From: Niveispirillum irakense DSM 11586
Lineage (GTDB): Bacteria > Pseudomonadota > Alphaproteobacteria > Azospirillales > Azospirillaceae
Assembly: GCF_000429645.1 (NCBI RefSeq)
Contig: NZ_AUCG01000020.1
Coordinates: 310,001 to 374,000 of the forward strand
Direction of reading: 5' to 3'
DNA: 64,000 nt
Shown here: positions 4,843 to 22,886 of the stretch, in pieces
Layout of the letters: each line of letters opens with the position of its first letter
Numbering within the stretch: position 1 is the first letter of the stretch
Notes under the pieces: generated by a model
Database searches by the model: none
Told to the model about the DNA's origin: nothing
The model's input: the letters and a program-made list of their open reading frames with translations, nothing else
Made by a program: the position numbers and the translations under genes

Positions 4843-4932
4843 TCAGGCCGAAGGGGGAAGTGGCTCTTTGCCCGCCCCCGTAGCGCTCCCCATATCCTGC
4901 GCTGGTGAATGCCATGGAAGGAGAAGGGGTTG

Positions 4933-5934
4933 ATGCTGTCCCGTCGATCCGTCACCGCGTCGCTGCTGGCTGGAATGGCTTTGTCCCGGCCAGCGCGCGC
5001 GCAGGTGCAGGCCGGTGATGTGGCGGATGTACGGGCGGCCATTGCCGGCCTGTCGCAACTGCACACGCTGCTGATCCAGCAGGGCGATGATGTGGTCTTT
5101 GCCGCGTCCCCGCGTGGTGCGGGGCCGGACCGGGCTGCCAACATCAAATCCTGTTCCAAAAGCGTGCTGGCTTTGGTGCTGGGCGGCGTGATCGGCGAGG
5201 GCAAGGTTACGCTCGATAGCCGGTTGGGCGATATCGCCCCCCGCCTGATCCCGGCGGATGCCACAAAGGGTGTGGCCGATGTGACGATGGCCGATCTTGT
5301 CACCCTGCGGGCCGGTCTGGCCGGCACATCAGGGCCGGATTACGGCGCCTGGGTGGGGTCCGGCAACTGGGTGGCCCATGCCCTGCGCCGGCCCATGGTG
5401 GACCAACCCGGCGGGCGGATGATCTATTCCACCGGCACCACCCATGTGCTGGGGGCAGCATTAGCGGTGGCGACGGGGGATAGCCTGCTGGCCCTGGCCC
5501 GGCGCCATCTGGGCGGCCCGCTGGATATCGACATTCCCGCCTGGACCCGCGATCCGCAGGGCTATTATCTGGGCGGGAACGAGATGGCGATGACGCCGCG
5601 CGCCATGCTGCGCATCGCGATGCTGATGCGTGACCAGGGCCGTTATGGTGGTCGGCAGGTGATGGATGCCGACTGGGTCAAGGCATCGCTGGTGCCCCGC
5701 ACCATCTCCCCCTATTCCGGCCTGCACTATGGCTATGGCTGGTTCCTCAGCGATAGCGGCTATGTCATCGCGCGCGGCTATGGCGGGCAGGTGATCGCCG
5801 CCCATCCGCAACGGGGGCTGGCGGTGGCGATCACGTCCGATCCCCGCCAGCCGGCTTATTCGCACGGCTATTTCGGCGATCTGATGCGTTTGCTGGAGGG
5901 GCCGATCCTGGCCCTGGGGACGGCACCGGCATAA
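4933..5934 (+). CDS. Exported serine hydrolase, class C beta-lactamase / DD-peptidase family
   Basis: Penicillin-binding-protein-like serine hydrolase (333 residues). A signal peptide with an RR pair (LSRRSVTASLLAG) runs to about residue 24, suggesting export and possibly Tat. The Ser-x-x-Lys catalytic motif is SCSK in NIKSCSKSVL near residue 79. The Tyr motif is YSTGTT, and a C-terminal GYGGQ occupies the KTG-like position. The start at 4933 follows AAGGAGAAGGGG. Substrate is unknown: family members include esterases and D-amino-acid amidases as well as beta-lactamases. The 3' end overlaps by about 100 bp the convergent LysR gene. Confidence 0.8.
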   Translation: MLSRRSVTASLLAGMALSRPARAQVQAGDVADVRAAIAGLSQLHTLLIQQGDDVVFAASPRGAGPDRAANIKSCSKSVLALVLGGVIGEGKVTLDSRLGDIAPRLIPADATKGVADVTMADLVTLRAGLAGTSGPDYGAWVGSGNWVAHALRRPMVDQPGGRMIYSTGTTHVLGAALAVATGDSLLALARRHLGGPLDIDIPAWTRDPQGYYLGGNEMAMTPRAMLRIAMLMRDQGRYGGRQVMDADWVKASLVPRTISPYSGLHYGYGWFLSDSGYVIARGYGGQVIAAHPQRGLAVAITSDPRQPAYSHGYFGDLMRLLEGPILALGTAPA

Positions 5935-7804: not shown

Positions 7805-8980
7805 ATGCCCCGATCGTCATTGGAGGGCATGGTTTTGCGATCTTGTGGGGCATCCGTCGCCGGCTTGTCCGATCTTGGCACCTATACGGACTGGTCCGTT
7901 GCCGCGATCCGCCGGTTGCGGGGGCGGGCCGATGCGGTGGCCCTGTTCGACAGTTCCATTGCCGAGCCGACGCGGCTTTTGTCCGGCCTGCTGGAAGGTG
8001 GGCTGGAAGGGCCGCTGGGCAGCAGCTTCGTTTCCGTCTTCGGGTCGGGCAACCCGCTGCTGATTGAAGCGCTGGCCGCCCGTTATCGCTTGTCCCCGGA
8101 CATGCTGCTGACGACGACCGGTGCCATCAATGGGCTGGAACTGCTGCTGAATGTGCTGGTGGCGCCGGGCCAGACGGTACTGGTGGAACGGCCTTGCTTC
8201 GACGTGCTGCCAATCCTGGCGGCCAAGGCCGGGGCGGAGATCCGTTTTGTCGAACGGGTCTATCCTGATTATGACCTCGATCTGGCGGAACTGGAGCAGG
8301 GCTTTGCCGCCGGCGCCCGGCTGTTGCTGCTGACCAACCTGCACAACCCTTCCGGCCATCTGCTGCCGGATGCGCGGCTGCGTCAGATTGCCGATCTGGC
8401 TGCCCGCTATCAGGCTACCGTCATTATTGACGAGGTCTATCGCGGTTTTGCCGATCCCCAGGCCTGTGCGGCGACGCTGGCGCCCAACATCGTCACCGTC
8501 AACAGCCTGACCAAGATTTACGGCCTGTTTGGCCTGAAATGCGGTTGGATCGCGGGCAACCCCGCGCTTGTGGAGCAGGTGCGCCGCCACCATGCCCATC
8601 GTGACCCCGGGGTGGCCAAGCTGACCCATGCGGTCGCCGCCTTGATCCTGCAGAATAGCGGGGATTTTGATGCCCATTGGCAGGCCATCCTGGCCCGCAC
8701 CCGCCCCGTGCTGCTGTCCCATGTGGAAGCGATGCGTGCGGATGGGTTGATGGAGGGCGATGTCCCGCCGGAAGGCTGCATCTATTTCCCCCGTCTGACC
8801 GCACCGCTGAGCGGGACGCGGCTGGTGGAACGGCTGTGGCAGGCGGAAGCTGTGCTGGCCGTACCGGGCGCGCTGTTTGGCGATGAGCGCCATCTGCGTA
8901 TCGGCTTCGGGGCGGATCCGGTGGCGTTGGCGCGCGGGCTGATGCGGCTGCATATGGTGCTGCGCCAGGAACGATCCTGA
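7805..8980 (+). CDS. PLP-dependent class I/II aminotransferase
   Basis: Fold-type I aminotransferase of 391 residues. The PLP-binding lysine is in NSLTKIYGLFGLK, near residue 239. The cofactor-contact motifs LTNLHNPSG (Asn) and VIIDEVYRGF (Asp/Tyr) are also present. No signal peptide, so cytoplasmic. An alternative ATG eight codons in (7829) lies too close to GGAGG to be preferred. It has its own gap of about 146 bp upstream and about 200 bp downstream, so it is probably monocistronic. Substrate specificity cannot be read from the sequence. Confidence 0.88.
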   Translation: MPRSSLEGMVLRSCGASVAGLSDLGTYTDWSVAAIRRLRGRADAVALFDSSIAEPTRLLSGLLEGGLEGPLGSSFVSVFGSGNPLLIEALAARYRLSPDMLLTTTGAINGLELLLNVLVAPGQTVLVERPCFDVLPILAAKAGAEIRFVERVYPDYDLDLAELEQGFAAGARLLLLTNLHNPSGHLLPDARLRQIADLAARYQATVIIDEVYRGFADPQACAATLAPNIVTVNSLTKIYGLFGLKCGWIAGNPALVEQVRRHHAHRDPGVAKLTHAVAALILQNSGDFDAHWQAILARTRPVLLSHVEAMRADGLMEGDVPPEGCIYFPRLTAPLSGTRLVERLWQAEAVLAVPGALFGDERHLRIGFGADPVALARGLMRLHMVLRQERS

Positions 8981-9190
8981 CCCACCCTGCCATGTGGGAC
9001 GCATAAAATTTCCGCCGGGGCCCCCGTCCCGGCATCAAAACGAACCAACGGGGCCGGAAGCGGGCGCAAAGAAACCGTAAAATTTCTCCGGCCCCATGAC
9101 AGCCTTACGGGAATGGAATCCTGACCGGCAAAAGCCGGCGCCGAGGCTTTTGCACAAAAGCAGGAAGAGCTTGTGAAGGGGGACTTGAGG

Positions 9191-12175
9191 ATGATGAAGC
9201 GTACCTATCGTTTGGCCTTGATGGCCGGCATATCAACCTTGGCGCTGAACGGCGCCGCATCGGTTGGCGCCTTGGCGCAGGCCAATGACGAGGTTGTGGA
9301 ACTGGAAGCCATTGTCGTTACCGGTTCGCGTCTGGCGCGTCCGGAACTGACGACATCGCAGCCGGTGGTGACCCTGGATGGTGCCATCCTGGACCAGCGC
9401 GGTTTCCAGAATGTGGCGGAAGCCATCAATGAAATGCCGGCTATCGGTATTTCCGACACGCCGCGCGGCGATCAGGGCGATAACAGCGTCGGTCGCAACT
9501 ATATCAACATGTTCAACCTGGGTTCCCAGCGCACGCTGACCCTGGTGAACGGGCGGCGCTTCGTCTCCTCCAACCCGCTTTCCACCAGCGCCGCCTCTCC
9601 GGGCGCGCAGGTGGACCTGAACAATATCCCCGCCGCGATGATCCAGCGGATCGAGACGGTGCAGGCAACCGGTGCCTCCGTCTATGGTTCCGACGCCATT
9701 GCCGGCGTGGTCAACCTGATCCTCAAGGACAATTTCGAGGGTCTGGATGTGGACGCCCAGTATGGCGTCACCGGTCGGGGCGACCGCCAGACCTACCGGG
9801 TCAGCGCCATCGGCGGCAGCAACTTTGCCAATGGTCGCGGCAACCTGACCGTCGCTTTTGAGCGGTCGGAGGAAAAGGGGCTGGTCTATAATGATCGCCC
9901 GTCGACCCGGCGTGGTATTGCCACGGCTTCCAATCCGGCCAATACCGGCCCCAGTGACGGCATTCCGGCATCCATCACCATCGAAGATCACCGTCTCAGC
10001 GAGTTCAACCGCAATGGCGTGATTTTCACGGCACCGGCACCGCTGCCGCGTTTCGGCCTGACCATTCCCGATCCGGCCAATCCCGGCCAGATGGTGCGCG
10101 CCCAGTTCGACGGCGCCGGCAATATCGTTCCCTACAATACAGGCACTTACTATGCGCCGGCCTTCGCCTCGGGCGGGGACGGTTATGCCATCCGCAATGT
10201 GACCTCGCTGATCTCCCCGGTGGAGCGCAACGTCCTTTACGCCAATGGTCATTATGACCTGACGGAGCGGGTGAAGCTGAGCTTTGAAGGTTCGGCCGCC
10301 TGGGTTGATGCGACGGAACCGGCCAACCAGGGTGAGTTCAACACCACCTTGCAGACCGGCTCTTCCGCGGCCCTGCTGGTGACGACGGAAAATGCCTTCC
10401 TGACCAATCAGGCACGCAGCGTACTGGCGGCGGCCGGTCGTAACAGCTTCTTCCTGTCGCGCGCGCTGGATGATGTGCTGCCCGATGATGCCCAGACGGT
10501 TTCCAAGACCCGCACCCAGCGCGCGGTTGTCGGGCTGGATGGCACGTTCGATGTTGGCGACCGGGAATTCTTCTGGAATGCCAGCGGCGTCTATGGTCAT
10601 ACCGGCGGCCATTACAGCACGGTGAAGGTGAACCAGACCCGTTTCGCCAACGCGGTTGATGCCGTGCGCGACGGTTCCGGCAACATCGTTTGCCGGGTGA
10701 CGCGCGCCAATCCGGGTTCCACCAACCCCGACATCGCTGGCTGTAAGCCGCTGAACCTGTTCGGCTATGGTGCGCCCAGCGATGAGGCGCGCGATTATGT
10801 GAACACGATCTTCCGCCAGGATTACGATCTGGATCAGGCCGTGGGCACGCTGAATGTCGGCGGCGACCTGTTCTCCCTGCCGGGCGGTGCGGTTCGCGCG
10901 GCGATCGGGTTCGAGCATCGTTACGAGAAGTCCGACTTCCGCCCCAACGAGGCATCGCTGCTGGGTGTAGGCCGTGACGTGCCGGTGATCCCGGCCAAGG
11001 GTTCCTACAACACGGATGAATTCTATGGCGAGCTGCTGGTCCCTGTGGTCAGCCGCGACATGGAAATCCCGCTGGTCCGCAGCTTCGAGGTTGAAGGCTC
11101 CGTCCGTTATGTCGATCACTCGCTGACCGGCAAGGACAATGCCTGGAATATCGGTGAGCGCTGGCAGGTCACGTCCGATCTGATGGTCCGCGGCTCCAAC
11201 AGCCGTACCTTCCGTTCGCCCTCGCTGCTGGAACTGTTCCTGCCGCGCTCCACCATCAGCGCGTCGGGCCTGGACCCGTGCGACAGCCGCTATGTCAATG
11301 GTGGCAACAACCCGTCCGCCCGTGGCGCCAACTGCGCCGCGCTCTATCAGCAGATCGGTCTGGCCAGCGGGCAGAGTTTCACCTCGCTGATCTCCAACGT
11401 GCCGCGCGCCGTGACCAATGGTGGCGATCCGGAACTGAAGCCGGAAGTGGCCGATAGCTGGACCGTCGGCACCGTCATCACGCCGGGCTTTGTGCCCAAT
11501 CTGACGCTGACGGCTGACTGGGTGGATATCAAGATCAAGGACGCCATCACGACCTTCGATCTGGATGCCATCTTCTCCACCTGCTATGACGCGCCCAACC
11601 CGGATTCGCTGATCTGCGGTCGCATCACCCGCGATGCCACGGGCCAGGTGGTGGATGCGCAGTTGGGTTACGTCAATGCCGGCTTCACCAATTTCGAAGC
11701 ACTGACCCTGACGGGCGATTACTTCTTCGATCTGGAAGATGTCGGCGTGGAGGCCATTCCCGGCACGATCCGTCTGAACGCCATGGTCCAGTACACCAAC
11801 AAGCTGGAAACCTCGGTGTCCGGTCTGGGCTATGACCTGGATGTGGAGAATGGGGAATATACCAACCCCAAATGGAAGGGCCGCTTCAGCGTTGGTTACG
11901 ATAATGGTGATCTCAGCCTGGTCTGGACCACCAACTATCTCAGCAGCGCGGTCAACAATGTGACCTACACCTACGAGGATCGCGACATCCTGGGCGTGGG
12001 CCGCTATTTCCGCCATGACGTGTCGGGCAGCTACCGGATCAACGAGATGGTGTCGCTGCGCGCAGGTATCAACAACGTGTTTGATACGAACCCGCCTTAT
12101 CCCATCGCCTATCAGGGCCTGTATGATGTGGTGGGCCGCAGCTTCTTCTTCGGCGCCAAGGTCAGCATGTGGTGA
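9191..12175 (+). CDS. TonB-dependent outer-membrane receptor
   Basis: Ligand-gated outer-membrane transporter energised by TonB. The 994-residue protein has a signal peptide ending near ALAQA, then the TonB-box-like EAIVVTGSRL and a plug domain (residues about 50-165). A large beta-barrel ends in the typical aromatic terminus FFFGAKVSMW. The ATG at 9191 follows GGGGGACTTGAGG; an upstream GTG at 9173 is open in frame but less likely. The next three genes follow closely in the same direction (class V aminotransferase, OCD-family enzyme, amidohydrolase), so it probably imports their substrate. The barrel is of the large type frequent in carbohydrate- and peptide-scavenging alphaproteobacteria. 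Confidence 0.92.
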   Translation: MMKRTYRLALMAGISTLALNGAASVGALAQANDEVVELEAIVVTGSRLARPELTTSQPVVTLDGAILDQRGFQNVAEAINEMPAIGISDTPRGDQGDNSVGRNYINMFNLGSQRTLTLVNGRRFVSSNPLSTSAASPGAQVDLNNIPAAMIQRIETVQATGASVYGSDAIAGVVNLILKDNFEGLDVDAQYGVTGRGDRQTYRVSAIGGSNFANGRGNLTVAFERSEEKGLVYNDRPSTRRGIATASNPANTGPSDGIPASITIEDHRLSEFNRNGVIFTAPAPLPRFGLTIPDPANPGQMVRAQFDGAGNIVPYNTGTYYAPAFASGGDGYAIRNVTSLISPVERNVLYANGHYDLTERVKLSFEGSAAWVDATEPANQGEFNTTLQTGSSAALLVTTENAFLTNQARSVLAAAGRNSFFLSRALDDVLPDDAQTVSKTRTQRAVVGLDGTFDVGDREFFWNASGVYGHTGGHYSTVKVNQTRFANAVDAVRDGSGNIVCRVTRANPGSTNPDIAGCKPLNLFGYGAPSDEARDYVNTIFRQDYDLDQAVGTLNVGGDLFSLPGGAVRAAIGFEHRYEKSDFRPNEASLLGVGRDVPVIPAKGSYNTDEFYGELLVPVVSRDMEIPLVRSFEVEGSVRYVDHSLTGKDNAWNIGERWQVTSDLMVRGSNSRTFRSPSLLELFLPRSTISASGLDPCDSRYVNGGNNPSARGANCAALYQQIGLASGQSFTSLISNVPRAVTNGGDPELKPEVADSWTVGTVITPGFVPNLTLTADWVDIKIKDAITTFDLDAIFSTCYDAPNPDSLICGRITRDATGQVVDAQLGYVNAGFTNFEALTLTGDYFFDLEDVGVEAIPGTIRLNAMVQYTNKLETSVSGLGYDLDVENGEYTNPKWKGRFSVGYDNGDLSLVWTTNYLSSAVNNVTYTYEDRDILGVGRYFRHDVSGSYRINEMVSLRAGINNVFDTNPPYPIAYQGLYDVVGRSFFFGAKVSMW

Positions 12176-12221
12176 TGTTAGGGTGAGGGGCCGGTGGTGC
12201 GGTTGTAGGCGGAGACGCCTG

Positions 12222-13502
12222 ATGGCCGCCCTGCCGGCCCCGCATCATTTGTTCCAAGGATTGAGGAGAGCCGCCATTTCCGCCCCCCTTCTTTCCCGTC
12301 GCGGTATCCTGGCCACGGCCCTGGCATTGCCGGCGGCGGCTGACTTGATCCCTTCCGCCCGCGCAGCCGGGGCCGGGCTGCCGGCGCGTGACGAATTTGC
12401 GGTTGGTGACCTGCACCATCTGGATGCGGGCACCATGCATCCGATGTCCAAAGGGGCCAAGGCGGCCATCGGACGCTATCTGGACAGCCGGTCGCTGGAT
12501 GGCACCAATCCCTATGACCGCAAGCTGGATGAGGATGTTCAGGCCCTGTTCGCCCGGCTGATCAATGCCGATCCGGCGGAAGTGGCCTATGTGCAAAGCA
12601 CGACGACGGGTGAAAATCTGGTCGTCCAGGCTCTGGACCTTGCCAACCGCAAGGGGCGTATCGTGGTCGATACGCTGCATTTCTTCGGTTCTTTCTATCT
12701 TTATCAGGAACTGGCCCGCAAAGGGCTGGACATAGTGTGGCTGAAGGACCGGGACGGGCGCATCCCGTTATCGGACTATAAGGCGGCGATCACGCCGGGC
12801 ACCTTGTTCGTGGCGGTGTCATCCACCTCCACCATCAACGGCTATCAGGCGGACCTGAAGCGGATCTGTGAGATGGCGCACGCCGTCGGCGCCTATGTTT
12901 ATGCCGACATCATCCATAGCGCCGGCTGCACGCCCTTTGATGTGAAGGCCAGCGGCGTCGATTTCGCCGCCACCGCCAGCTACAAATGGCTGATGGGGGA
13001 TTTCGGCCTGGGCTTCCTCTATGTCGCTAAGGATGTGCAGCCTAAACTGACCCGTTCTGTCTTCGGCTATTACCAGTTGGACCAGTTCCAGACCCATCTC
13101 TACCCGTTCGATCCGCCGGGGGAGAGCATTGCCGATTATGCGCCCAGCGATGATGCCGGCGGGCTGTTCGCCATCGGCACCCATGCCCATACGGTGGGCG
13201 CGCAGCTTAAACATTCCCTGCAGTATCTGCTGGATCTGGGCATCGACCGGATCGAAGCGGCGCGTCAGCCGCTGATTGAAAAGCTGAAGGGGGAACTGCC
13301 CAAGCGCGGTTACCAGATGCTGACCCCGCCGGACAGCACGTCGCCGCTTGTCGCCTGCGCCTATCAGGATGCGCGCGCATTGTCGGACCGGCTGGCGGCG
13401 CGCAAGGTCAAAATATCGCTGTCGCGCAACCGGTTCCGCCTGTCGGTGGCGGCCTATAACAGCATGGATGATATCGACGCCTTTCTCGATGCTTTGGGGT
13501 GA
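12222..13502 (+). CDS. Tat-exported class V aminotransferase (isopenicillin-N-epimerase-like)
   Basis: A fold-type I PLP enzyme of 426 residues with an export signal: the twin-arginine motif LSRRGILATALAL lies near residues 24-36, followed by Ala-rich sequence and ARAAGA. The PLP lysine is in TASYKWLMGDFG. Other class V motifs are VSSTSTINGY and YADIIHSAG. Class V members act as desulfurases, epimerases, kynureninases or aminotransferases. Tat export of a PLP enzyme is uncommon; PvdN is the best known example. It is 46 bp after the TonB receptor and 3 bp before the OCD-family gene. The reaction is not known. Confidence 0.82.
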   Translation: MAALPAPHHLFQGLRRAAISAPLLSRRGILATALALPAAADLIPSARAAGAGLPARDEFAVGDLHHLDAGTMHPMSKGAKAAIGRYLDSRSLDGTNPYDRKLDEDVQALFARLINADPAEVAYVQSTTTGENLVVQALDLANRKGRIVVDTLHFFGSFYLYQELARKGLDIVWLKDRDGRIPLSDYKAAITPGTLFVAVSSTSTINGYQADLKRICEMAHAVGAYVYADIIHSAGCTPFDVKASGVDFAATASYKWLMGDFGLGFLYVAKDVQPKLTRSVFGYYQLDQFQTHLYPFDPPGESIADYAPSDDAGGLFAIGTHAHTVGAQLKHSLQYLLDLGIDRIEAARQPLIEKLKGELPKRGYQMLTPPDSTSPLVACAYQDARALSDRLAARKVKISLSRNRFRLSVAAYNSMDDIDAFLDALG

Positions 13503-13505
13503 GGG

Positions 13506-14471
13506 ATGGAACGCAGCGACCTGATCGTCATTGATGCCGCCGCCGTAAAGGCGGGGCTGGATTATCCCGGCTGCATCGACATGGTGCGTGAGGCCATGAA
13601 GGCCCTGTCGGCGGGCACCACCCGTCAGCTCAACCGCACCATGATCCATATGGGCGAGGGGCGGACCTTCGCGCAGATGCCGGGGTCGCTGGGCGATGAG
13701 GATATGTTCGGCGCCAAGCTGATCTCCGTCTTTGCCGATCCGGCCCAGCCGGGACGGCGACGCCATCGCGGCCTTGTCGTGCTGTTTGAACCGGAGCAGG
13801 GCCGCCCCGTCTGTGTCGCGGATGCCGAAGAAATCACCCATATCCGCACCGCCGCCGCCACGGCGGTGGCAACCGATGCACTGGCCCGGCCCGATGCGCG
13901 GACGCTGCTGCTGATGGGCACGGGCGGGCAGGCGCGTACCCATCTGCGCGCCCTGCCGCTGGTGCGCGCCTTCGACCGGGTGATGATCTGGGGCCGCGAT
14001 CCGGCCAAGGCGCAGGCCTTGGCGACAGAGGCGAAGGCTGATCTGGGGCTGGCGGCGGAAAGCGTGGATGATCTGCCTGCCGCCGTCGCCGCATCGGATG
14101 TGATCTGCACCCTCACCGGGTCGGCCCAGCCGATCCTGTTTGGTGACTGGCTGCGGCCGGGGGTGCATGTGAACATCGTTGGATCATCGGCCCCCGGCCC
14201 GGTGGAGGTGGATGCAGCCCTGGTGCAGCGCTGCCGCTACATCGCCGATAGCCGCGCGTCCGTGCTGGTGGCAGGGGCGGAATTCCTGCTTGCCAAGGAA
14301 CAGGGGCTGGTCGGCGATGACCATATCGCCGCCGAGATCGGGGAGGTGCTGTTGGGCCGGGTGCCGGGCCGCCGCTCCCCCGAGGATATCACCGCCTACA
14401 AATCGCTGGGCCATGCCGTGCAGGATCTGGCCGCCGCGTCCCATCTTTACCAAAGGGCTTCCCGCCGATGA
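13506..14471 (+). CDS. Ornithine cyclodeaminase / mu-crystallin family protein
   Basis: NAD(P)-binding enzyme of 321 residues. The family's Rossmann motif reads LMGTGGQARTHLRAL near residue 136, and the substrate-side segments RTMIHMGEGRTFAQMPGSLG and FGAKLISVF precede it. Relatives include ornithine cyclodeaminase, ketimine reductases and alanine or opine-type dehydrogenases. No signal peptide, so it should act in the cytoplasm. It sits 3 bp after the exported aminotransferase and overlaps the amidohydrolase start by 4 bp, so it is in the same operon. Reduction or release of an imine made from the imported substrate is a plausible role. Confidence 0.88.
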   Translation: MERSDLIVIDAAAVKAGLDYPGCIDMVREAMKALSAGTTRQLNRTMIHMGEGRTFAQMPGSLGDEDMFGAKLISVFADPAQPGRRRHRGLVVLFEPEQGRPVCVADAEEITHIRTAAATAVATDALARPDARTLLLMGTGGQARTHLRALPLVRAFDRVMIWGRDPAKAQALATEAKADLGLAAESVDDLPAAVAASDVICTLTGSAQPILFGDWLRPGVHVNIVGSSAPGPVEVDAALVQRCRYIADSRASVLVAGAEFLLAKEQGLVGDDHIAAEIGEVLLGRVPGRRSPEDITAYKSLGHAVQDLAAASHLYQRASRR

Positions 14472-16588
14472 CATTCTCCCTGCTGCGCGCCGGCCTGATG
14501 GCCGGCACCATGATCGCCGGTCTGGTGCTGGCCTCTCCCGCCCTTGCCAAGACAGAGCGGATGAGCGTGATTTCCGGCGGGGAGAAGGTCGGCTTCGTGG
14601 AGGCGGAAATTGACGGCGCCAAGGTCGCCATCCGCTATGATGTGAAGAATAATGGTCGCGGGCCCACCATGGCGGAAACGCTGGAACTGGGCCGCGACGG
14701 GCTGCCGAAAAGCTGGGCGCTGGATGGCACCGCCACCTTCGGCAGTGCGGTGGAAGAACGGTTCCGCCTGGATGGCAACACCGCCACCTGGAAAGATTCC
14801 ATGGGGGCCGGCACGGCGGCGTTGAAGGAACCGCATCTCTATATCGGGCAGGCGGCCAGCCCGTGGGCGCTGGGCCTATATGCCCGTGCCTTGTTGAAGG
14901 ACAAGGATGGCCGCATCCCGGCCTTGCCATCGGGGGAACTGGCGCTGGAAAAGGCCGGCACGGTGGACGTGCCGCAGAAGGGCGGCAAGGCGAAGCCCTA
15001 TGATGCCTATCTGATCAAGGGCATCGACCTGGAGCCGGCGATCATCCTGCTGGATAAGGATGGCAGCCTGTTTGCCGAAATTTCCGCCACCGGCGTCACG
15101 GTGCGCGAAGGGTTTGAAGAGGCGGCAGAAACGCTGCGCCAGGCGGCGGAACGGATCGAGGCGCACCGCTATGTCGATCTGCAGAAGAAGCTGGCCCACC
15201 GCTATGATCAGCCGGTGCGCATCCGCAATGTCCGCCTGTATCAGCCGGAAAGCGGTACCCTGTCGGCCCCGGTTTCTGTCGTCAATTTCCGTAACCGCAT
15301 TGCCTCCATCCAGCCGGCGGACAGCCCGGCGACGGAAGGGGAGGTGATTGTTGATGGCGGTGGCGGCACGCTGATGCCCGGCCTGCATGACATGCACGCC
15401 CATGTCAGCCTGCAATCCTCCCTGCTTTATATCGCTGCCGGTGTCACCAGCGTCCGTGACATGGGCAACAGCAACGACTTCCTGCTGAACCTGACGGAAC
15501 GGATCGAACATGGCGAGGTGGTCGGCCCGCGCATTGTCCGCAACGGTTTCCTGGAAGGGCGCAGCCCTTATTCCGCCCGCAACGGCATTGTCGCGGATAG
15601 CGAGGCGGCTGCTGTGGATGCCGTGCGCTGGTACGCCGCCCACGGCTATTGGCAGATCAAGATCTATAATTCCATGAACCCGGCCTGGGTGCCCGCTATT
15701 TCCCGGGAAGCGAAGGCGCTGGGGCTGGGTGTGACCGGCCATATCCCGGCCTTCACCAATGCCGATGCCATGATTGCCGCCGGCTATGATGAGGTCACCC
15801 ATATCAATCAGGTGATGCTGGGCTGGGTGCTGTCACCGGAGGAAGATACGCGCACGCCGCTGCGCCTGACGGCCATGACCCGCACGGCGGGCTTGGACCT
15901 TGGCAGCGAGAAGGTGCAGCGGACCCTGAAGGCGATGAAGGAAAAGGGCATCGCCCATGACCCGACCGCCGTGACGCTGGAACTGTTGATGCTGAGCCGC
16001 AATGGCGTGGCCTGCCCCTGCGTGGCCGATTATATCGACCATCTGCCCATCGGCATGAAGCGCCGCCGCATGCAGTTGATTGCCCCGGTAAAGGGACCGG
16101 AGGATGATGCCGCCTATCAGGGCGGTTTCGCCAAGGTGCTGGAAGTGTTGAAGCTGTTCCACGACAATGGCATCCGGCTGCTGCCCGGCACAGATGATGG
16201 CACCGGCCTTTCCGTCCATCGGGAGTTGGAGCTGTACGCCAAGGCCGGCATCCCCACGGCGGATGTGCTGCGGCTGGCCACCCTGGGGCCGGCGGAATAT
16301 ATGCACCAGGACCAGCAGCTTGGCTCCATTGCCAAGGACAAGCTGGCCGATTTCTTCCTGGTGGATGGCAATCCGCTGGAAGAACTGGGTAGCATCCGCC
16401 GCATCCGGATGGTGGTGAAGGATGGGGCGATCTATTACCCGTCTGAAATCCTGGACGCGGTTGGCATCAAGCCCTTTGCCGAACCGCCCGCTGTGCAGGT
16501 GCCGGCCAACCCTGTCCGCCGCGCCGATGCGGAGCCGCCGGCCCCGCATGACCATTCCCATGAATATGGGGTGCATACGGCCTATTGA
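14468..16588 (+). CDS. Exported amidohydrolase with N-terminal extra domain
   Basis: A 706-residue metal-dependent hydrolase. The signal peptide (MAGTMIAGLVLASPALA) is followed by an extra, mostly beta domain to about residue 250. The TIM-barrel amidohydrolase domain comes next. Metal-binding residues visible are the HxH in HDMHAHVS, a probable carboxylated Lys in QIKIYNS, the His residues in VTGHIP and EVTHINQ, and the Asp in LPGTDDG. Imidazolonepropionase- and prolidase-like enzymes share this layout. The start ATG overlaps the previous stop (ATGA), so it is translationally coupled. Likely cleaves an amide or cyclic amide in the periplasm; the substrate is unknown. Confidence 0.87.
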   Translation: MTFSLLRAGLMAGTMIAGLVLASPALAKTERMSVISGGEKVGFVEAEIDGAKVAIRYDVKNNGRGPTMAETLELGRDGLPKSWALDGTATFGSAVEERFRLDGNTATWKDSMGAGTAALKEPHLYIGQAASPWALGLYARALLKDKDGRIPALPSGELALEKAGTVDVPQKGGKAKPYDAYLIKGIDLEPAIILLDKDGSLFAEISATGVTVREGFEEAAETLRQAAERIEAHRYVDLQKKLAHRYDQPVRIRNVRLYQPESGTLSAPVSVVNFRNRIASIQPADSPATEGEVIVDGGGGTLMPGLHDMHAHVSLQSSLLYIAAGVTSVRDMGNSNDFLLNLTERIEHGEVVGPRIVRNGFLEGRSPYSARNGIVADSEAAAVDAVRWYAAHGYWQIKIYNSMNPAWVPAISREAKALGLGVTGHIPAFTNADAMIAAGYDEVTHINQVMLGWVLSPEEDTRTPLRLTAMTRTAGLDLGSEKVQRTLKAMKEKGIAHDPTAVTLELLMLSRNGVACPCVADYIDHLPIGMKRRRMQLIAPVKGPEDDAAYQGGFAKVLEVLKLFHDNGIRLLPGTDDGTGLSVHRELELYAKAGIPTADVLRLATLGPAEYMHQDQQLGSIAKDKLADFFLVDGNPLEELGSIRRIRMVVKDGAIYYPSEILDAVGIKPFAEPPAVQVPANPVRRADAEPPAPHDHSHEYGVHTAY

Positions 16589-16615
16589 GGAAGCTGTCCG
16601 CCTGGGGTGGCGCGG

Positions 16616-17512
16616 TCAGGCGGGTATCAGCCCGTCGCGCGCGGCCCTGCGCACGGCATCTGTCAAGGCATGCAGGGCGCCTGCATGCAGGCGGGTGGCG
16701 GTCCAATAGAGTTTGACACCTATGGTCTGGCCGGGCGGCAGTTCCACCAGCCGGCCATCCTGGATATGGGAATGGGCCATGGATACAGGCTGCATGCCCC
16801 AGCCCAGACCCGCCAGGGCCAGGTCGAGAAAGCCTTGGGTGGAGGGCACCCAATGGGCGGGTGCTGTCAAGGCGATGCCATACGCGGCCATCGCCCAGCG
16901 CGCCTGCAGCCCGTCGCGCCGGTCAAACCGCAGACAGGGGGCAGTGGCCAGCGTGTCGGCGCTGACCCCATTGCTGAAATACCGCGCCATGAAAGCCGGG
17001 CTGGCGCAGGCGGCATAGCGCAATTCCCCCAGCAGCATGGTTTTGCAGCCTTGCACCGGCTCCGGGTCCGCCGTTACGGCGGCCAGCACTTCCCCGGCGC
17101 GCAACCGGTCGGCTGTATGGCCTTCATCATCCAGGGTCAAATCCAGCAACAGGCCGGTGGCTTCCGCGAAACGGGCGGCGGCGGCGGGAAACCACGTCGC
17201 CAGACTATCGGCATTGACGGCGATTTTCAGCGTGGGGATGGCGCTGGCCCCTAGCCCCTGGGGTGACAGGATGGGCGCCAGATCGGCTTCCAGCAATTCC
17301 ACCTTATCGACATGGGTGCAGAGCGCGCGACCGGTATCGGTGGGGGCGCAGGGCTGGCCGCGCACAACCAGGATTGTGCCCAGCCGTTCCTCCAGCCCGC
17401 GCACCCGTTGGGAAATGGCGGACGGGGTGATGCCCAGCCGGGCAGCGGCACGGTCAAAACTGCCCTCCCGGATCACGGCGGCAAGGGCGGAGAGGGAAGC
17501 GTAATCCAGCAT
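16616..17512 (-). CDS. argP: LysR-family regulator of the ArgP type
   Basis: A 298-residue LTTR with the HTH at residues 17-37 (SFDRAAARLGITPSAISQRV) and the ArgP/LysG-like sequence RGLEERLGTILVVRGQP. It is divergent from a LysE/ArgO-type exporter with 74 bp between the starts, which is the classic ArgP-ArgO or LysG-LysE arrangement. In known systems this regulator senses Arg or Lys and activates the exporter. Identity as ArgP rests on this context and the N-terminal sequence. Confidence 0.85.
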   Translation of the reverse strand: MLDYASLSALAAVIREGSFDRAAARLGITPSAISQRVRGLEERLGTILVVRGQPCAPTDTGRALCTHVDKVELLEADLAPILSPQGLGASAIPTLKIAVNADSLATWFPAAAARFAEATGLLLDLTLDDEGHTADRLRAGEVLAAVTADPEPVQGCKTMLLGELRYAACASPAFMARYFSNGVSADTLATAPCLRFDRRDGLQARWAMAAYGIALTAPAHWVPSTQGFLDLALAGLGWGMQPVSMAHSHIQDGRLVELPPGQTIGVKLYWTATRLHAGALHALTDAVRRAARDGLIPA

Positions 17513-17586
17513 GGATTAAGCATTGCTTCACCAGCCTTAGAAAAACAAGTTTTACTGAAGTTGGGGCGGACGCTACGCCTGCACCC

Positions 17587-18222
17587 ATGATGATCTTCGA
17601 CCCCACCCCCTTCCTCACCGGTTTTGCCCTGTCCGCCGCCCTGATCATCGCCATCGGGGCGCAGAACCTGTTCGTGCTGCGCCAGGGGCTGCGGCGGGAA
17701 CATGTGGGGCCGATTGTCCTGTTCTGTGCGGCGGCTGATGCGCTGTTGATCAGTGCCGGCGTGGCTGGCATCGGCACGATGCTGGGGGCGTTGCCGGTGC
17801 TGACCCTGGCCTTGACCCTGGGCGGGGCGGCCTTTCTGGGCTGGTATGGGGTAAAGGCGCTGCGCCGTGTCACCGTCAGTGATGCGATGATCGTCCAGGC
17901 GGGCGAGGGCCTGACCCTGGGCCGCGCCCTGGCGGCGGCCGTGGGTTTCACCTTGCTGAACCCGCATGTCTATCTGGACACGGTGCTGTTGATGGGCACG
18001 GCGGGGGCGGCGCAGCCGGCAGATGTCCGGCCCTTCTTTGTGGCCGGTGCCATCGCGGCCAGTTTTCTGTGGTTCACATCCCTGGGATATGGCGCCCGGA
18101 TCTTGGCGCCACTGTTCGCCCGGCCTGTCGCGTGGCGGGTGCTGGATGGGCTGGTGGGGGTGACCATGCTGGTGCTGGCCGGTTCCCTGCTGCTGCGCGC
18201 ATTTTTACAGGAACCGGCCTGA
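17587..18222 (+). CDS. argO: LysE/ArgO family basic amino acid exporter
   Basis: Six hydrophobic segments over 211 residues and the signature AIGAQNLFVLRQGLRRE near residues 18-34 identify an inner-membrane amino acid exporter of the LysE superfamily. Family members export Arg, Lys or canavanine when peptide uptake raises their level. The divergent ArgP-type gene is its expected activator. Nearby peptidase and amino acid permease genes give such overflow protection a purpose. A palindromic repeat begins about 50 bp after the stop. Confidence 0.87.
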   Translation: MMIFDPTPFLTGFALSAALIIAIGAQNLFVLRQGLRREHVGPIVLFCAAADALLISAGVAGIGTMLGALPVLTLALTLGGAAFLGWYGVKALRRVTVSDAMIVQAGEGLTLGRALAAAVGFTLLNPHVYLDTVLLMGTAGAAQPADVRPFFVAGAIAASFLWFTSLGYGARILAPLFARPVAWRVLDGLVGVTMLVLAGSLLLRAFLQEPA

Positions 18223-18273
18223 CGGTTTGGTAACGTATTTGATTTTAAGTAGAATCGAAAATGGTTCGCACTC

Positions 18274-18357
18274 CCGTCACCCCGGCGCAGGCCGGGGTCC
18301 AGGGTCACAAGCGCGTTGCTCTACGAAGCTGGACCCCGGCCTGCGCCGGGGTGACGG
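18274..18357 (+). repeat. REP-like palindrome, copy 1 (forward loop)
   Basis: Two 29-bp arms, 18274-18302 and 18329-18357, are exact reverse complements (left arm begins CCGTCACCCCGGCGCAGGCC). The 26-bp loop contains CACAAGCGCGTTGCTCTACG. It lies between convergent genes (argO and the APC permease), so it can also act as a bidirectional terminator. It is the same family as the copies at 30099, 62462 and 63834. Just downstream, 18370-18389 carries an AACCTAACCCTGGCAAACTC flank that resembles the flank of copy 2. Confidence 0.93.
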
Positions 18358-18389
18358 TGTAGGTTGATTCAACCTAACCCTGGCAAACT

Positions 18390-19727
18390 CTATGGGGTGA
18401 TGGCTGCCCGTGTGCGCATCCGCTTCACGATGTAATAGACGGCCCCTACAGCCCCCCAGCAGACCAGCAGGCCATAGGGCCGCCAGTCCGCCTCGAACCC
18501 GGCGATGATCAGCACCAGGGCCGAGGCCGCGCCGGTAAAGGCGATGGCAATCTGATGTTTCTTGGCCAGTTTGAAGCCGGCGCGGTCATACAGGTCGGGG
18601 TGATGGCGGGTTACCCGTGCCGCCGCGATGCAGATGCAGCCATATTTGCACAGGTTGGGGATGTTCACGGCCAGGAACAGGAAGGTCAGTTCCATCGGCA
18701 GCAGCAGGCCGACACAGCCCATGGCAAAGACGGTCAGCAGCGCCATATAGGGCGTCTTCCATTGCGGATGCACCTTGGCCAGCGCCGAGGGCAGCACGCC
18801 CGCCCGCGCCATGGCGAAAAGGGAGCGGCTGAACAGGGTGAACAGCGCATTCAGCGACTTGCCGCAGGCGGCCACCGCCGCCACCACGATCAACGGCTTG
18901 GCGACCGGACCCATGAATTGGGTTGCGGCATCCAGGATCGGCGCATCGCTGCCCGCCAGCCCGTCACCGCCCAGTACACCCAAAGCCACAATGGCGACGG
19001 CCAGATACAGGATGGTGGCGGACCCGATGGACAGGGCAATGCCCAGCGGGATGGTGCGCCGGCTGTTCGACACCTCGTCCCCGGCCTCCGTCGCCGCCTC
19101 GATCCCGAAGAACAGGCCGGCCAGCAGGGGGGCTGCCGTCACCACGGCCAGCCAGCCATGGGGGGCGATGGGGGCAATGCGCGACAGGTCCATTTCCGTC
19201 GTCGCGCCCCAGCCGATAAAGACCAGGAACAGCAGGACCAGCAGCGTCATCAGCACCTTCTGCACCCGCGACGCGATATGCACGCCGAACAGGTTGGACA
19301 GCAGGGCCAGCGCGAACAGCACGAACATGGTCGGCTTGGTCGGCAGCGGGATGATCATGGAAGCATAGCGCACCAGCACCAGCGCCAGCACGACCATGGC
19401 CCCCATATTGGCGACGATGCGCAGCCAGGTGATGAAAAAGCCCAGCGTGGGATGGATGAAGCGTGCCGGCCATTCATAAGACGCGCCCGACACCGCCACG
19501 GTGGAGCCAAGGAAGGCGTAGGAAATGGCGATCAGAAACATCGGCACGCCGGCGATCAGCACCGATATCAGCATGCCGGGGCCGGCCAGGGCCGAGGCCG
19601 GGGCCAGGGCGGAGAAGATGGAAACGCCAACCGCACTGCCCAGGCCCAGCGCCACGACGCCGCCAAGGTCCAGGCTTTTGCGCAGGCCGGCATCGGCCGC
19701 CTCCGGGGTGGGGCTTGGGCTGGTCAT
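18390..19727 (-). CDS. APC-family amino acid permease
   Basis: Inner-membrane amino acid transporter of 445 residues with about 12 hydrophobic segments. The unwound-helix motif VVALGLGSAVGVSIFS of APC-superfamily TM1 is near residue 23. The start at 19727 is fixed by an ATGA overlap with the stop of the upstream S10 peptidase gene, so the two are coupled. This suggests that amino acids released by the exported carboxypeptidase are taken up by this permease. Substrate range is not evident. Confidence 0.9.
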   Translation of the reverse strand: MTSPSPTPEAADAGLRKSLDLGGVVALGLGSAVGVSIFSALAPASALAGPGMLISVLIAGVPMFLIAISYAFLGSTVAVSGASYEWPARFIHPTLGFFITWLRIVANMGAMVVLALVLVRYASMIIPLPTKPTMFVLFALALLSNLFGVHIASRVQKVLMTLLVLLFLVFIGWGATTEMDLSRIAPIAPHGWLAVVTAAPLLAGLFFGIEAATEAGDEVSNSRRTIPLGIALSIGSATILYLAVAIVALGVLGGDGLAGSDAPILDAATQFMGPVAKPLIVVAAVAACGKSLNALFTLFSRSLFAMARAGVLPSALAKVHPQWKTPYMALLTVFAMGCVGLLLPMELTFLFLAVNIPNLCKYGCICIAAARVTRHHPDLYDRAGFKLAKKHQIAIAFTGAASALVLIIAGFEADWRPYGLLVCWGAVGAVYYIVKRMRTRAAITP

Positions 19728-21208
19728 GGTTTGTCCTTGGGCGCGGTCAGGAAATGGCGGACATCCGCCAGGAATTGACGCCAACTGGCATCATCGGAAT
19801 AGGCGACATGGCCCGCCGCATAGCGGGTGAACATCATGCGGTCGGCAGGGCCTGTGGATTGGGCGCGCAGATAATCGGCAGCGCCGATGGTGGTGGTCAG
19901 GTCATAAAGGCCGGTGCCGACAAACAGGCGGAACTCCGGGTCATCGCGCATCGCCGCCTCCACCGGTGCCATGAAGGGCCAGTCGGTGAAGGGGGAGGGG
20001 GCGCCGCCATAATCCCATTCCCCCGTGGGCCGGACCAGCACGCGGTAATCCGCGGCATCGGGCACTTTCAGCCTGTCGGCCAGATAGGTTTGGATGGCCT
20101 TGCCATAGAGGTTGGAAACGGGCGTGAAGGCATCCGGTCCCACCGTCGGCCCGGCATCGGCGGGACGCGGCGCGGTATAGCGCGCATCGTAACGGCCGAT
20201 CACCTTGCCTTCCGCCCGCAGCAACTCCACCCGGAACCGCTCCTTGCTGATGCGCAGGTCATGGGCGCGGTAGAAATCAGCGGAAATGCCGGTAAGGGCC
20301 TCCAGCCGATCGGCGATGCGGGCTTTTTCCGCCTCGCCCAGGTCACGGCCTTGAACCAGGGCGGCCAGATAGTCGGTCTTGGCGAAACTTGCCGCTTCAT
20401 CCGCGATCCTGTCCGGGTCGCAAGCGCGGGGTGTTGCCTTGCCGTGATAGCAGGCGATGGCGGCCAGCGTCGGCAGGGAGACGGTGTATGAGAGGATATT
20501 GTCCGGTCGCTGCGCGGTTTCCACCATGTTCAGTGCCTGACCCAGCAGCATCACACCCTTCAGGCGGATGGCGGGCTGGCCCTGGCGCAGCGGGTCCACC
20601 ATGGCGGCAGCGCGGATGGTGCCATAGCTCTCACCCAGCAGATAGGCCGGTGCATCGGCCCGGCCATTATTCACCAGCCAGGCCCGCACCAATTGGGCAT
20701 TGGCTTCTGCGTCACCAGCAGCGGAACTATAAAATGCCGGATCGGCCCCGTCCTGGATGCGGGAAAAACCGGTGCCCGGCGGGTCGATGAAGACCAGATC
20801 GGCAATATCCAGCAGCAGCGCGTCATTCGCCACCAGAGCGCCGGCATCCGGCACCGGGGCCGTGGGGTCTTGCGGCACGGTCACCCGCATCGGGCCGAAC
20901 GCGCCCATATGCAGCAGGGAGGAAGCAGAACCCGGCCCGCCATTGAAGATGAACAGGACCGGCCTGTCCTTGGGCGCCTTCGCCCGCAGACGGTAGGCGA
21001 TATAGCCCGCCGTGGCATCCGGCTTCCCCGGCTGGTGGCCGACGGGTACGGTGCCCACCTCTGCCATGATCGACAAGCTTTTGCCGCCGGCCGTCAGGTG
21101 ATGTGTGCTGGTGACGGGTTGGGAAAGTTCCGCCCCGGCGGGGGCCGTCAGGGCAAGGGCGATCCCTGTGGCGATCCCCGCCAGCATGCCTTGCATCCGC
21201 CTTGCCAC
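19724..21208 (-). CDS. Exported serine carboxypeptidase, family S10 (first paralogue)
   Basis: Carboxypeptidase Y-like protease of about 494 residues with a signal peptide (MLAGIATGIALALTAPAGA). S10 landmarks are FNGGPGSASS (oxyanion), FIDPPGTGFS, the nucleophile Ser in LGESYGT, the catalytic Asp in GLYDLTT and the catalytic His in AAGHVAY. The start is uncertain: I use the GTG at 21208 because GGAGGG precedes it by about six bases. An ATG at 21196 and a frame opening at 21244 are alternatives. It overlaps the APC permease gene by 4 bp. A second S10 gene is divergent from it. Confidence 0.9.
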   Translation of the reverse strand: MARRMQGMLAGIATGIALALTAPAGAELSQPVTSTHHLTAGGKSLSIMAEVGTVPVGHQPGKPDATAGYIAYRLRAKAPKDRPVLFIFNGGPGSASSLLHMGAFGPMRVTVPQDPTAPVPDAGALVANDALLLDIADLVFIDPPGTGFSRIQDGADPAFYSSAAGDAEANAQLVRAWLVNNGRADAPAYLLGESYGTIRAAAMVDPLRQGQPAIRLKGVMLLGQALNMVETAQRPDNILSYTVSLPTLAAIACYHGKATPRACDPDRIADEAASFAKTDYLAALVQGRDLGEAEKARIADRLEALTGISADFYRAHDLRISKERFRVELLRAEGKVIGRYDARYTAPRPADAGPTVGPDAFTPVSNLYGKAIQTYLADRLKVPDAADYRVLVRPTGEWDYGGAPSPFTDWPFMAPVEAAMRDDPEFRLFVGTGLYDLTTTIGAADYLRAQSTGPADRMMFTRYAAGHVAYSDDASWRQFLADVRHFLTAPKDKP

Positions 21209-21395
21209 CGCCACCCTCCATCCCGATCCAGCAGGCGGCACCATAGGGCAGTTCGCAGGGATAATTGTTGCCGCTTTCCGGCAGTTCGTGAAGTTTTTAT
21301 GCCAGTTCGCCGGTCAGGCCCGACAGGAAGGGAAAGAATGTCCAACGGTCTCATTCTATCCTTATCGAGATCGGACAGAGCAGGGGCATTGGAAC

Positions 21396-22886
21396 ATGCG
21401 GGCAAGGATCGCGGGTCTGGCGTTACTGACGGGTCTGGCCTTTGTGCTGCCGGCAGGGGCCGCGGAGCCGACCATGGCGCCCGTGCCAGAGGTGGCAGGC
21501 CCCCTCCTGGGGCCGGTGATCAGCCAACATCGGCTGGAATTACCCGGCGCGCCCCTTGCCTATGAGGCACGCTTTGCCGAACGGGAATTGGCAGATGCGG
21601 CGGGCAAGCCGCTGGCCACCCTGTCGGCCACCGCCTATCTGCGCCAGCCGCTGGACCTGGCGCGACCCGTTCTGTTCGCTTTCAATGGGGGTCCGGGTGC
21701 CTCTTCCTCCCCCCTGCATTTTGGCGCGTTCGGCCCCCGGCTGATTGAACGGGCCGCCGATGGCAGCCGCACCCTGGTGGATAATCCCCACACCCCCCTG
21801 GTGGATGCCGATTTGGTCTTTATCGACCCGGTGGGCACGGGTTTCAGCCGCGTGCTGCCCGGTGGCGACGGCCAACCCTTCTGGTCGGTGGATGGCGATG
21901 CGCGGGCGGTGTTGGACCTGATCCGCGACTGGCTGCGGGAGAATGGCCGCACCGCGTCCCCGGTCTATATCGCCGGGGAGAGCTATGGCGGCTTCCGGCT
22001 GGCGACCCTGGCCAAGGATGCGGGGGATTTGAACCTTGCCGGGCTGATCCTGATCTCCCCCCTGCTGGATGCCAGCGCGTCGGAAGAGGCGGTGGGCAAT
22101 GACCTGCCGCATATTTTCCGCCTGCCCAGTTACGCGGTGGCCGCGTGGCGGCATGGCAAGGGGAAGGCCAGAAGCGGTGATGTAGTGGCTGTGTTCAACG
22201 AGGCCGCCGCCTTCGCTCAGTCCGATTATGCGCTGGCTTTGTTGCAGGGAACGCGCCTGCCGGCGGCGGATCGGCAACGCATTGCCCGCCGGGTGGCGGA
22301 TTTGACCGGGCTGGATGTGGCAACGGTGCTTGAACAGAATCTGCGTGTGCCAACCGACCTGTTCGTGGATCGGCTGCTGGCCGACAAGGGTTTGCGCGTG
22401 GGCCGGCTGGATGCACGGGTGACGGCACCGCTGCCCAAGCAGGAGGTTGCGGGCCGCCCGGCGGCTGCCAATGACCCGTCGCTGGGCTTGGGGCGCAGCA
22501 ATGTCATCATCTCCGCTCCGGCGACCCGCTATTTCCAGCAGGAACTGGGGCTGCCGGCGGGCCGGGATTATGTATCGCTGACCCTGGATGTGAATTTCCG
22601 CTGGGATTTCCGCCCCGCCGGTCAGGGTACGCAATATTACGTCAACCCCACGGCCAATATCGCGGCCTTGCTGCGCGACAAGCCGGGGCTGCGGCTGTTG
22701 CTGGTGGGCGGCTATTATGATCTGGCGGTGCCGGTGTTGGCGGCGCGCTATGCCATTGACCATGCTGGCATCCCGCCCGATCGCTTCACGGAAGCGCTGT
22801 TCGATGCCGGGCACAGCCCGTTCGAGGGGGAAAGCAACCGCGCCCGGATGAAGGCCATGCTGCAGGGCTTCATCCGGGGGCAGTGA
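21396..22886 (+). CDS. Exported serine carboxypeptidase, family S10 (second paralogue)
   Basis: 496-residue S10 peptidase with signal peptide MRARIAGLALLTGLAFVLPA. Motifs are FNGGPGASSSP, FIDPVGTGFSRV, AGESYGG (nucleophile Ser), GGYYDLAVP (Asp) and DAGHSPF (His). It is divergent from the first paralogue, with about 190 bp between starts that should hold both promoters. The sequences differ clearly outside the motifs, so they are old paralogues rather than a recent duplication. Bacterial S10 enzymes release C-terminal amino acids from peptides, probably here in the periplasm. Confidence 0.9.
   Translation: MRARIAGLALLTGLAFVLPAGAAEPTMAPVPEVAGPLLGPVISQHRLELPGAPLAYEARFAERELADAAGKPLATLSATAYLRQPLDLARPVLFAFNGGPGASSSPLHFGAFGPRLIERAADGSRTLVDNPHTPLVDADLVFIDPVGTGFSRVLPGGDGQPFWSVDGDARAVLDLIRDWLRENGRTASPVYIAGESYGGFRLATLAKDAGDLNLAGLILISPLLDASASEEAVGNDLPHIFRLPSYAVAAWRHGKGKARSGDVVAVFNEAAAFAQSDYALALLQGTRLPAADRQRIARRVADLTGLDVATVLEQNLRVPTDLFVDRLLADKGLRVGRLDARVTAPLPKQEVAGRPAAANDPSLGLGRSNVIISAPATRYFQQELGLPAGRDYVSLTLDVNFRWDFRPAGQGTQYYVNPTANIAALLRDKPGLRLLLVGGYYDLAVPVLAARYAIDHAGIPPDRFTEALFDAGHSPFEGESNRARMKAMLQGFIRGQ

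Follow-up and report, generated by a model that had tools for sequence, protein, structure and literature searches.

A gene cluster of Niveispirillum irakense and other bacteria predicted to combine periplasmic peptide breakdown with an exported class V PLP enzyme

Analysis of a 64-kb stretch of the genome of Niveispirillum irakense DSM 11586, called here the window and used for all coordinates unless a locus is named, revealed a gene cluster in which a pyridoxal 5′-phosphate (PLP)-dependent class V enzyme with a leader of the twin-arginine translocation (Tat) type is surrounded by peptidases and amino-acid enzymes whose families recur around its homologues in other bacteria. The cluster is probably a locus for the breakdown of peptides in the periplasm, in which the exported class V enzyme would take part. 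In some relatives the neighbourhood also encodes RidA, either as a separate protein or fused to the amidohydrolase of the cluster. No other observation hints at the chemistry as well as this linkage, and from it a reactive imine or enamine would be expected in the periplasm. The whole explanation, uptake of peptides followed by a periplasmic breakdown that yields such an imine or enamine, has in our judgement even chances of being right when it is read loosely. The genes of the cluster are given below; domain assignments are matches above the Pfam cut-offs, and the signal peptides of the S10 proteins, the amidohydrolase and the RidA proteins were judged by eye, without a predictor.

7805-8980, + strand: class I/II aminotransferase (PF00155, 116.9 bits; no signal peptide seen by eye)
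9191-12175, + strand: TonB-dependent outer-membrane receptor (PF00593 and PF07715, both above cut-off)
12222-13502, + strand: class V PLP enzyme with a Tat-type signal and a SufS fold that lacks the Cys loop (PF00266, 113.2 bits)
13506-14471, + strand: protein of the ornithine cyclodeaminase (OCD)/mu-crystallin family, imine-reductase-like (PF02423, 219.4 bits; no signal peptide seen by eye)
14468-16588, + strand: metal-dependent amidohydrolase with a signal-peptide-like N-terminus (PF01979, 71.4 bits, cut-off 25)
18390-19727, − strand: APC-family amino-acid permease (PF13520, 121.5 bits; frame checked)
19724-21196, − strand: S10 serine carboxypeptidase a, S10a (PF00450, 45.9 bits, cut-off 21.9; GESYG motif; signal-peptide-like N-terminus)
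21396-22886, + strand: S10 serine carboxypeptidase b, S10b (PF00450, 60.6 bits, cut-off 21.9; GESYG motif; signal-peptide-like N-terminus)

The first-pass annotation of this DNA had described the four genes at 9191-16588 as a tightly packed operon, and rereading of the sequence bore this out. All four are present on the same strand with intact frames; the receptor and class V genes are separated by 46 bp and the class V and OCD genes by 3 bp, the OCD and amidohydrolase genes overlap by 4 bp, and GGCGGAG precedes the class V start at 12222. The gene unit is wider than these four and reaches from 7805 to 22886, taking in the aminotransferase, the permease and the two S10 carboxypeptidases. The start of the permease gene and the stop of the S10a gene overlap by 4 bp, and the S10b gene is divergent. 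Family searches of the whole 5.45-Mb genome (G000) detected two S10 genes and one OCD-family gene (13506-14471) and no others. Because these sole detected members of both families all lie no more than 10 kb from the class V gene, the linkage is more than chance.

Conservation of the linkage was assessed by scanning species genomes with the class V protein, which gave 210 relatives of it. The loci of the best 80 (numbered with the prefix L) were retained together with flanks of up to 10 kb on either side, and counts were taken over the 68 loci that span 19 kb or more. Matches are cut at the locus end in 31 of these loci (33 matches, 19 of them to the amidohydrolase) and the counts are therefore lower bounds. 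The genera with loci include Sphingomonas, Novosphingobium, Caulobacter, Phenylobacterium, Hyphomonas, Nitrospirillum, Dyella, Duganella and Roseateles. S10 proteins were found in 66 of the 68 loci, with at least two in 62, followed by homologues of the aminotransferase (56), the permease (54), the amidohydrolase (52), the receptor (49) and the OCD-family protein (40). Three or more of the six partner families were present in 63 loci, four or more in 54 and five or more in 49. The earlier suggestion of a conserved linkage thus stood as far as the recurrence of the partner families is concerned. The idea of a four-gene set did not, because at least seven families recur, and the contiguous run of four genes seen in the window occurs in none of the 68 loci. 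The receptor, the OCD family and the amidohydrolase are jointly present in 23 loci, and the partner genes are found in 31 distinct arrangements. The recurrence of peptidases in the neighbourhood also supports the peptide-like substrate that had been proposed from the four genes.

Clustering of open frames combined with tblastn added an Lrp/AsnC-type regulator in 44 of the 68 loci and an M61-type peptidase in 35, the latter assignment being marginal, since the one protein that was scanned reached 22.4 with the cut-off at 22. The clusters of many relatives (L043, L047, L048 and others) contain between one and three M61-type peptidases; none was noticed in that of the window. Because these two families and the amino-acid permease recur in the loci, amino-acid nutrition is indicated. 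This speaks against a role of the locus in handling a metallophore or an antimicrobial modified peptide, an explanation that the presence of a TonB-dependent receptor would favour, as would the Tat-exported PLP enzymes known from pyoverdine maturation (PMC6206403). The receptor itself reaches no curated NCBIfam cut-off among its 17 matches, siderophore and B12 models included, and we regard a non-nutritional role as very improbable.

The export of the class V enzyme is predicted from its conserved leader. The N-terminus contains SRRGIL followed by a hydrophobic stretch. A strict rule was applied to the family, which asked for RR and, within a few residues of it, 12 residues free of D, E, K, R, Q, N and H with a mean hydropathy of at least 1.2. 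This rule was passed by 71 of 88 family members and by none of 15 more distant homologues. Among the 17 members that failed, 14 still have RR when inspected by eye, so that RR is found in the N-terminal segment of 85 of the 88. The Tat-type signal noted earlier on this enzyme is therefore a conserved feature at the level of sequence. In the loci L061 and L077, second class V copies (L061:16887-18113 and L077:7250-8371) without the RR leader lie beside RR-bearing copies; it is possible that these second copies are cytoplasmic counterparts.

PLP chemistry in the periplasm had been called rare. This is fair, although precedents are already known: as described in PMC6206403, the PLP enzymes PvdN and PtaA are exported by the Tat system with their cofactor bound, and their target in the periplasm is the glutamate head of pyoverdine. 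The class V protein shares with them the Tat signal peptide, as a sequence motif, and through it a presumptive export in the folded state, and it has a weak match to the PvdN equivalog model (26.3 against a cut-off of 650). It differs from them in this low score and in having peptidases and a permease as neighbours. The 50 structure matches listed for the class V model do not include PvdN, which is no argument against a kinship.

The predicted model of the class V enzyme has a mean predicted local distance difference test score (pLDDT) of 87.0, with residues 1-50 below 50. Its best fold matches are the cysteine desulfurases SufS and CsdA (Foldseek E 3.1e-27; Z about 40-41, root-mean-square deviation (rmsd) 2.4-2.9), nearly tied with the cystine lyase C-DES (1n31; Z 40.4, rmsd 2.5, 360 aligned residues, 19% identity). 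Five residues (K255, D229, H153, R404 and R406) do not vary among 41 homologues, and four of them (K255, the PLP lysine, with D229, H153 and R406) align with SufS active-site positions in a profile alignment read by eye. We take the roles of these positions to be those of SufS, with R406 at the carboxylate-binding position. In contrast to the desulfurases, the class V protein has a Tat-type leader and nothing that matches the catalytic-cysteine loop of SufS (GHHC), which the profile alignment places in an insertion; no cysteine is invariant in the alignment, and the nearly invariant C216 is located elsewhere than the loop. The scores are far below the curated cut-offs (87.9 against 475.1 for SufS, 65.3 against 530.75 for NifS), and a cysteine desulfurase identity was rejected. 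Because the active-site residues are kept and the cysteine loop is absent, the protein is best read as a PLP enzyme that binds an amino-acid carboxylate and is not a desulfurase; that it is active with PLP and able to bind such a carboxylate is very likely. C-DES presumably also lacks the desulfurase cysteine, and we take it to be a cyanobacterial enzyme that is not exported. Its likeness to the class V model is one of predicted fold; a C-S lyase of the C-DES type would carry out a beta-elimination that gives pyruvate and ammonia.

Another set of reactions may be considered. The class V enzyme could be a periplasmic racemase, a transaminase or a PvdN-like tailoring enzyme that alters the free amino-acid head of an imported peptide so that the peptidases or the permease accept it, RidA then clearing a side product. 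The retention of R406, an arginine presumably binding the substrate carboxylate as at the equivalent SufS position, is consistent with this explanation. So is the fact that the glutamate head on which the Tat-exported PvdN and PtaA act has a free alpha-amino and a free alpha-carboxyl group (PMC6206403). Against it stand the distance from the PvdN cut-off and, for a transaminase, the need for an amino acceptor in the periplasm. Moreover, no siderophore biosynthesis genes were noticed among the recurring families and no pyoverdine gene cluster around the class V gene, though no search was aimed at either. We consider this explanation unlikely.

The predicted peptidase character of the locus rests on the S10 proteins and on the amidohydrolase. 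Both S10 proteins belong to peptidase family S10 by family score and by the GESYG nucleophile motif, which in S10b aligns with carboxypeptidase Y, and carboxypeptidase activity is predicted for both. In the amidohydrolase, H310, H312, K398, H425, H445 and D576 are invariant in 29 sequences; we take these six to be the metal ligands of the superfamily (HxH, Lys, His, His and Asp). The predicted model (pLDDT 88.5) consists of the barrel and an extra, mainly beta N-terminal domain (residues about 28-213, about 185 residues). All 50 matches listed in the whole-model fold search are amidohydrolase-type proteins. The nearest listed are the Xaa-Pro dipeptidase 2qs8, the Caulobacter Lys/Arg carboxypeptidase Cc2672 (3mtw) and related prolidases, and ochratoxin-degrading amide hydrolases stand lower among the listed matches. 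With 2qs8 and 3mtw the protein shares the barrel fold and, presumably, the metal-ligand pattern; it differs from them in the extra domain and is 19-20% identical to them. On the Xaa-Pro dipeptidase equivalog NF051886 it scores 86.7, against a cut-off of 500.

The OCD-family protein had been taken for an ornithine cyclodeaminase-like enzyme, a function that we rejected because every model score lies below its cut-off: the five cyclodeaminase models gave 203.9 (cut-off 417), 171.3 (408), 124.5 (438), 116 (350) and 95.4 (337). Its closest solved relatives by sequence, similar over nearly the full length, are 6t3e (E 1.2e-44) and 4bv8 (E 2.3e-40), a delta1-pyrroline-2-carboxylate reductase and a ketimine reductase. 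The best NCBIfam match is the pyrroline-2-carboxylate reductase model NF004793 (227.2 against a cut-off of 322), and no equivalog cut-off in that database is reached. S228 is invariant in 18 sequences of the family. It may stand at the position where cyclodeaminases have their catalytic aspartate after the VG motif.

An imine-reductase-like protein and a member of the amidohydrolase superfamily would both fit a pathway for a cyclic amide, a hydantoin or an opine, and substrates of this kind had been suggested from the four genes. The nearest listed folds of the amidohydrolase, however, are peptidases and amide hydrolases, the allantoinase model, whose cut-off is 357.85, gives it 21.6 bits, and the most constant partners in the loci are the S10 carboxypeptidases. 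Such a pathway is highly improbable.

Proteins of the Rid family were found in 20 of the 68 loci (22 of all 80), of the RidA type in 18 and of the YjgF type in four of the 68. RidA is described in PMC12172467 and PMC5829821 as an enamine/imine deaminase that clears 2-aminoacrylate, which PLP enzymes form as a product or as an intermediate. The copies in the loci resemble these deaminases in that PF01042 is above its cut-off, and differ from them in that several have a signal-like leader or are fused to the amidohydrolase. A signal-like N-terminus was seen on several, among them those of L043, L047, L049, L060, L093 and L097. RidA adjoins the amidohydrolase in seven loci (L043, L047, L048, L051, L060, L093 and L097), and in six of 50 amidohydrolase copies (L054, L075, L076, L086, L089 and L095) the two are fused in a single open frame with RidA at the C-terminal end, as at L086:5735-8278 on the − strand. 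Two of the fusions were scanned and both domains were found by Pfam, PF01042 with 79.9 and 80.8 bits (cut-off 27.3). The fusions of L054 and L076 end in a hydrophobic tail that resembles a membrane anchor. Elsewhere RidA accompanies the class V gene, which it follows by about 130 bp in four of the five Nitrospirillum loci (L049, L050, L052 and L053); in L077 the distance between RidA and the second class V copy is 27 bp.

Two enzymes of the cluster could make the imine or enamine, the class V protein and the amidohydrolase. Because RidA stands more often beside the amidohydrolase than beside the class V gene, the amidohydrolase may be the source. It would then act as a dehydropeptidase, cleaving dehydro-peptides to release aminoacrylate, which the fused or adjoining RidA would destroy, and the locus would feed on peptides with dehydro-amino acids. 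The fusions and the seven further loci agree with this, as do the dipeptidases and carboxypeptidases among the nearest listed folds. No feature of the loci indicates a dehydro-peptide substrate, however, and RidA lies by the class V gene instead in L077 and in the four Nitrospirillum loci. We judge this explanation to be quite improbable.

The explanation that we prefer, with the class V enzyme as the source, can be laid out as a series of steps. The TonB-dependent receptor would bring a peptide through the outer membrane, and in the periplasm it would be trimmed by both S10 carboxypeptidases and by the metal amidohydrolase. The class V enzyme would fold with PLP in the cytoplasm, be exported by Tat and act on a released amino acid or on a free amino-acid head, generating an enamine or imine by elimination- or deamination-type chemistry. 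An exported RidA would hydrolyse this product to a keto acid and ammonia, the permease would import free amino acids, and the cytoplasmic class I aminotransferase and the OCD-family reductase would complete the route. The species of the window would use a RidA encoded elsewhere in its genome. Taken to its furthest form this amounts to a dedicated periplasmic imine/enamine pathway, in which amino acids from imported peptides would be dismantled before they cross the inner membrane. The work would be done by a PLP lyase or deaminase exported through Tat, together with an exported RidA that some lineages have fused to an exported metallopeptidase. We put this form forward tentatively, as closer to a minority opinion than to an even bet, and a lyase or deaminase step by the class V enzyme is, taken by itself, doubtful.

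Several observations weigh against this explanation. The SufS-like fold of the class V enzyme does not predict its reaction. Rid proteins are found in a minority of the loci, those by the amidohydrolase (seven loci and six fusions) are commoner than those by the class V gene (five), and the RidA proteins of L048, L051 and L077 are without a signal-like leader. The cluster of the window contains no RidA; its own genome has six elsewhere, one of which (C12:37704-38051, L108) has a signal-peptide-like N-terminus and lies far from the cluster. The twin arginine is absent from the class V protein of L096 and from the second copies of L061 and L077. One of the 68 loci, L042, lacks all six partner families. 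Lastly, the linkage counts describe the best 80 of 210 relatives, and the 130 weaker ones lie outside them.

The distribution of the locus is patchy. When the taxonomic class was sampled evenly with 240 genomes, the class V protein family (E ≤1e-60) proved rare: it is present in three genomes, all of them with S10, while S10 is present in 19. A full-length-type class V match was found in five of the 35 genomes searched of the taxonomic family to which the window belongs and in one of 11 genomes of its genus. The patchy presence within the taxonomic family suggests horizontal transfer. The amidohydrolase, OCD-family protein, permease and S10a of the window are about 59-71% identical to Sphingomonas proteins and about 30-56% to the Nitrospirillum copies, while S10b is nearer to the Nitrospirillum copies (58-65%). 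The G+C content is 64.2% in the cluster and 62.8% in the remaining window, and a clear foreign signal was not seen. The putative peptide-utilisation locus has probably been spread horizontally.

Two further genes (16616-18222) are placed between the amidohydrolase and the permease:

16616-17512, − strand: ArgP/LysG regulator, probable bystander (TIGR03298, 380.5 bits)
17587-18222, + strand: LysE-type exporter, probable bystander (PF01810, 107.1 bits)

Because neither has a homologue of at least 70 bits in the 80 loci of relatives, they were rejected as members of the system and are treated as bystanders; a TauE-type permease and an upstream LysR gene were rejected on the same grounds. The nearest solved structure to the class I aminotransferase is 8fft (E 4.4e-29), which we take, with the help of an NCBIfam match, to be GntC, and those nearest to the permease are 5oqt and 6f34. 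A basic-amino-acid theme (GntC-like aminotransferase, Lys/Arg-carboxypeptidase-like amidohydrolase, permease near cationic carriers, ArgP and LysE) is not claimed, since the matches are distant. Three loci of Roseateles and Duganella (L042, L061 and L077) encode a YheO-like regulator with PAS and HTH_22 domains, checked with Pfam in L061 and assigned in the others by the same cluster of open frames; it is presumably of the type of DauR, the repressor of the D-arginine regulon. At 4909-5934 the window encodes a protein that on inspection resembles a serine hydrolase. Its N-terminus, LSRRSVTASLLAGMA, is likewise similar to a Tat signal, and it has one weak homologue in the 80 loci.

Full-text literature searches, which covered few subscription journals, found no paper describing this gene set among those listed, and the available part of PMC12911857 does not name a PLP enzyme. 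If the proposed explanation is true, alpha-, beta- and gammaproteobacteria would have in common a form of peptide uptake with PLP chemistry and imine detoxification outside the inner membrane. The S10 carboxypeptidases, the exported amidohydrolase family and the leader-bearing RidA proteins would gain a shared and testable function, and the range of periplasmic PLP enzymes would extend from the tailoring of siderophores by PvdN and PtaA to nutrition. Should the dedicated imine/enamine pathway also prove true, a carbon–nitrogen chemistry of amino acids that is normally cytoplasmic would be run in the periplasm as a nutritional system.

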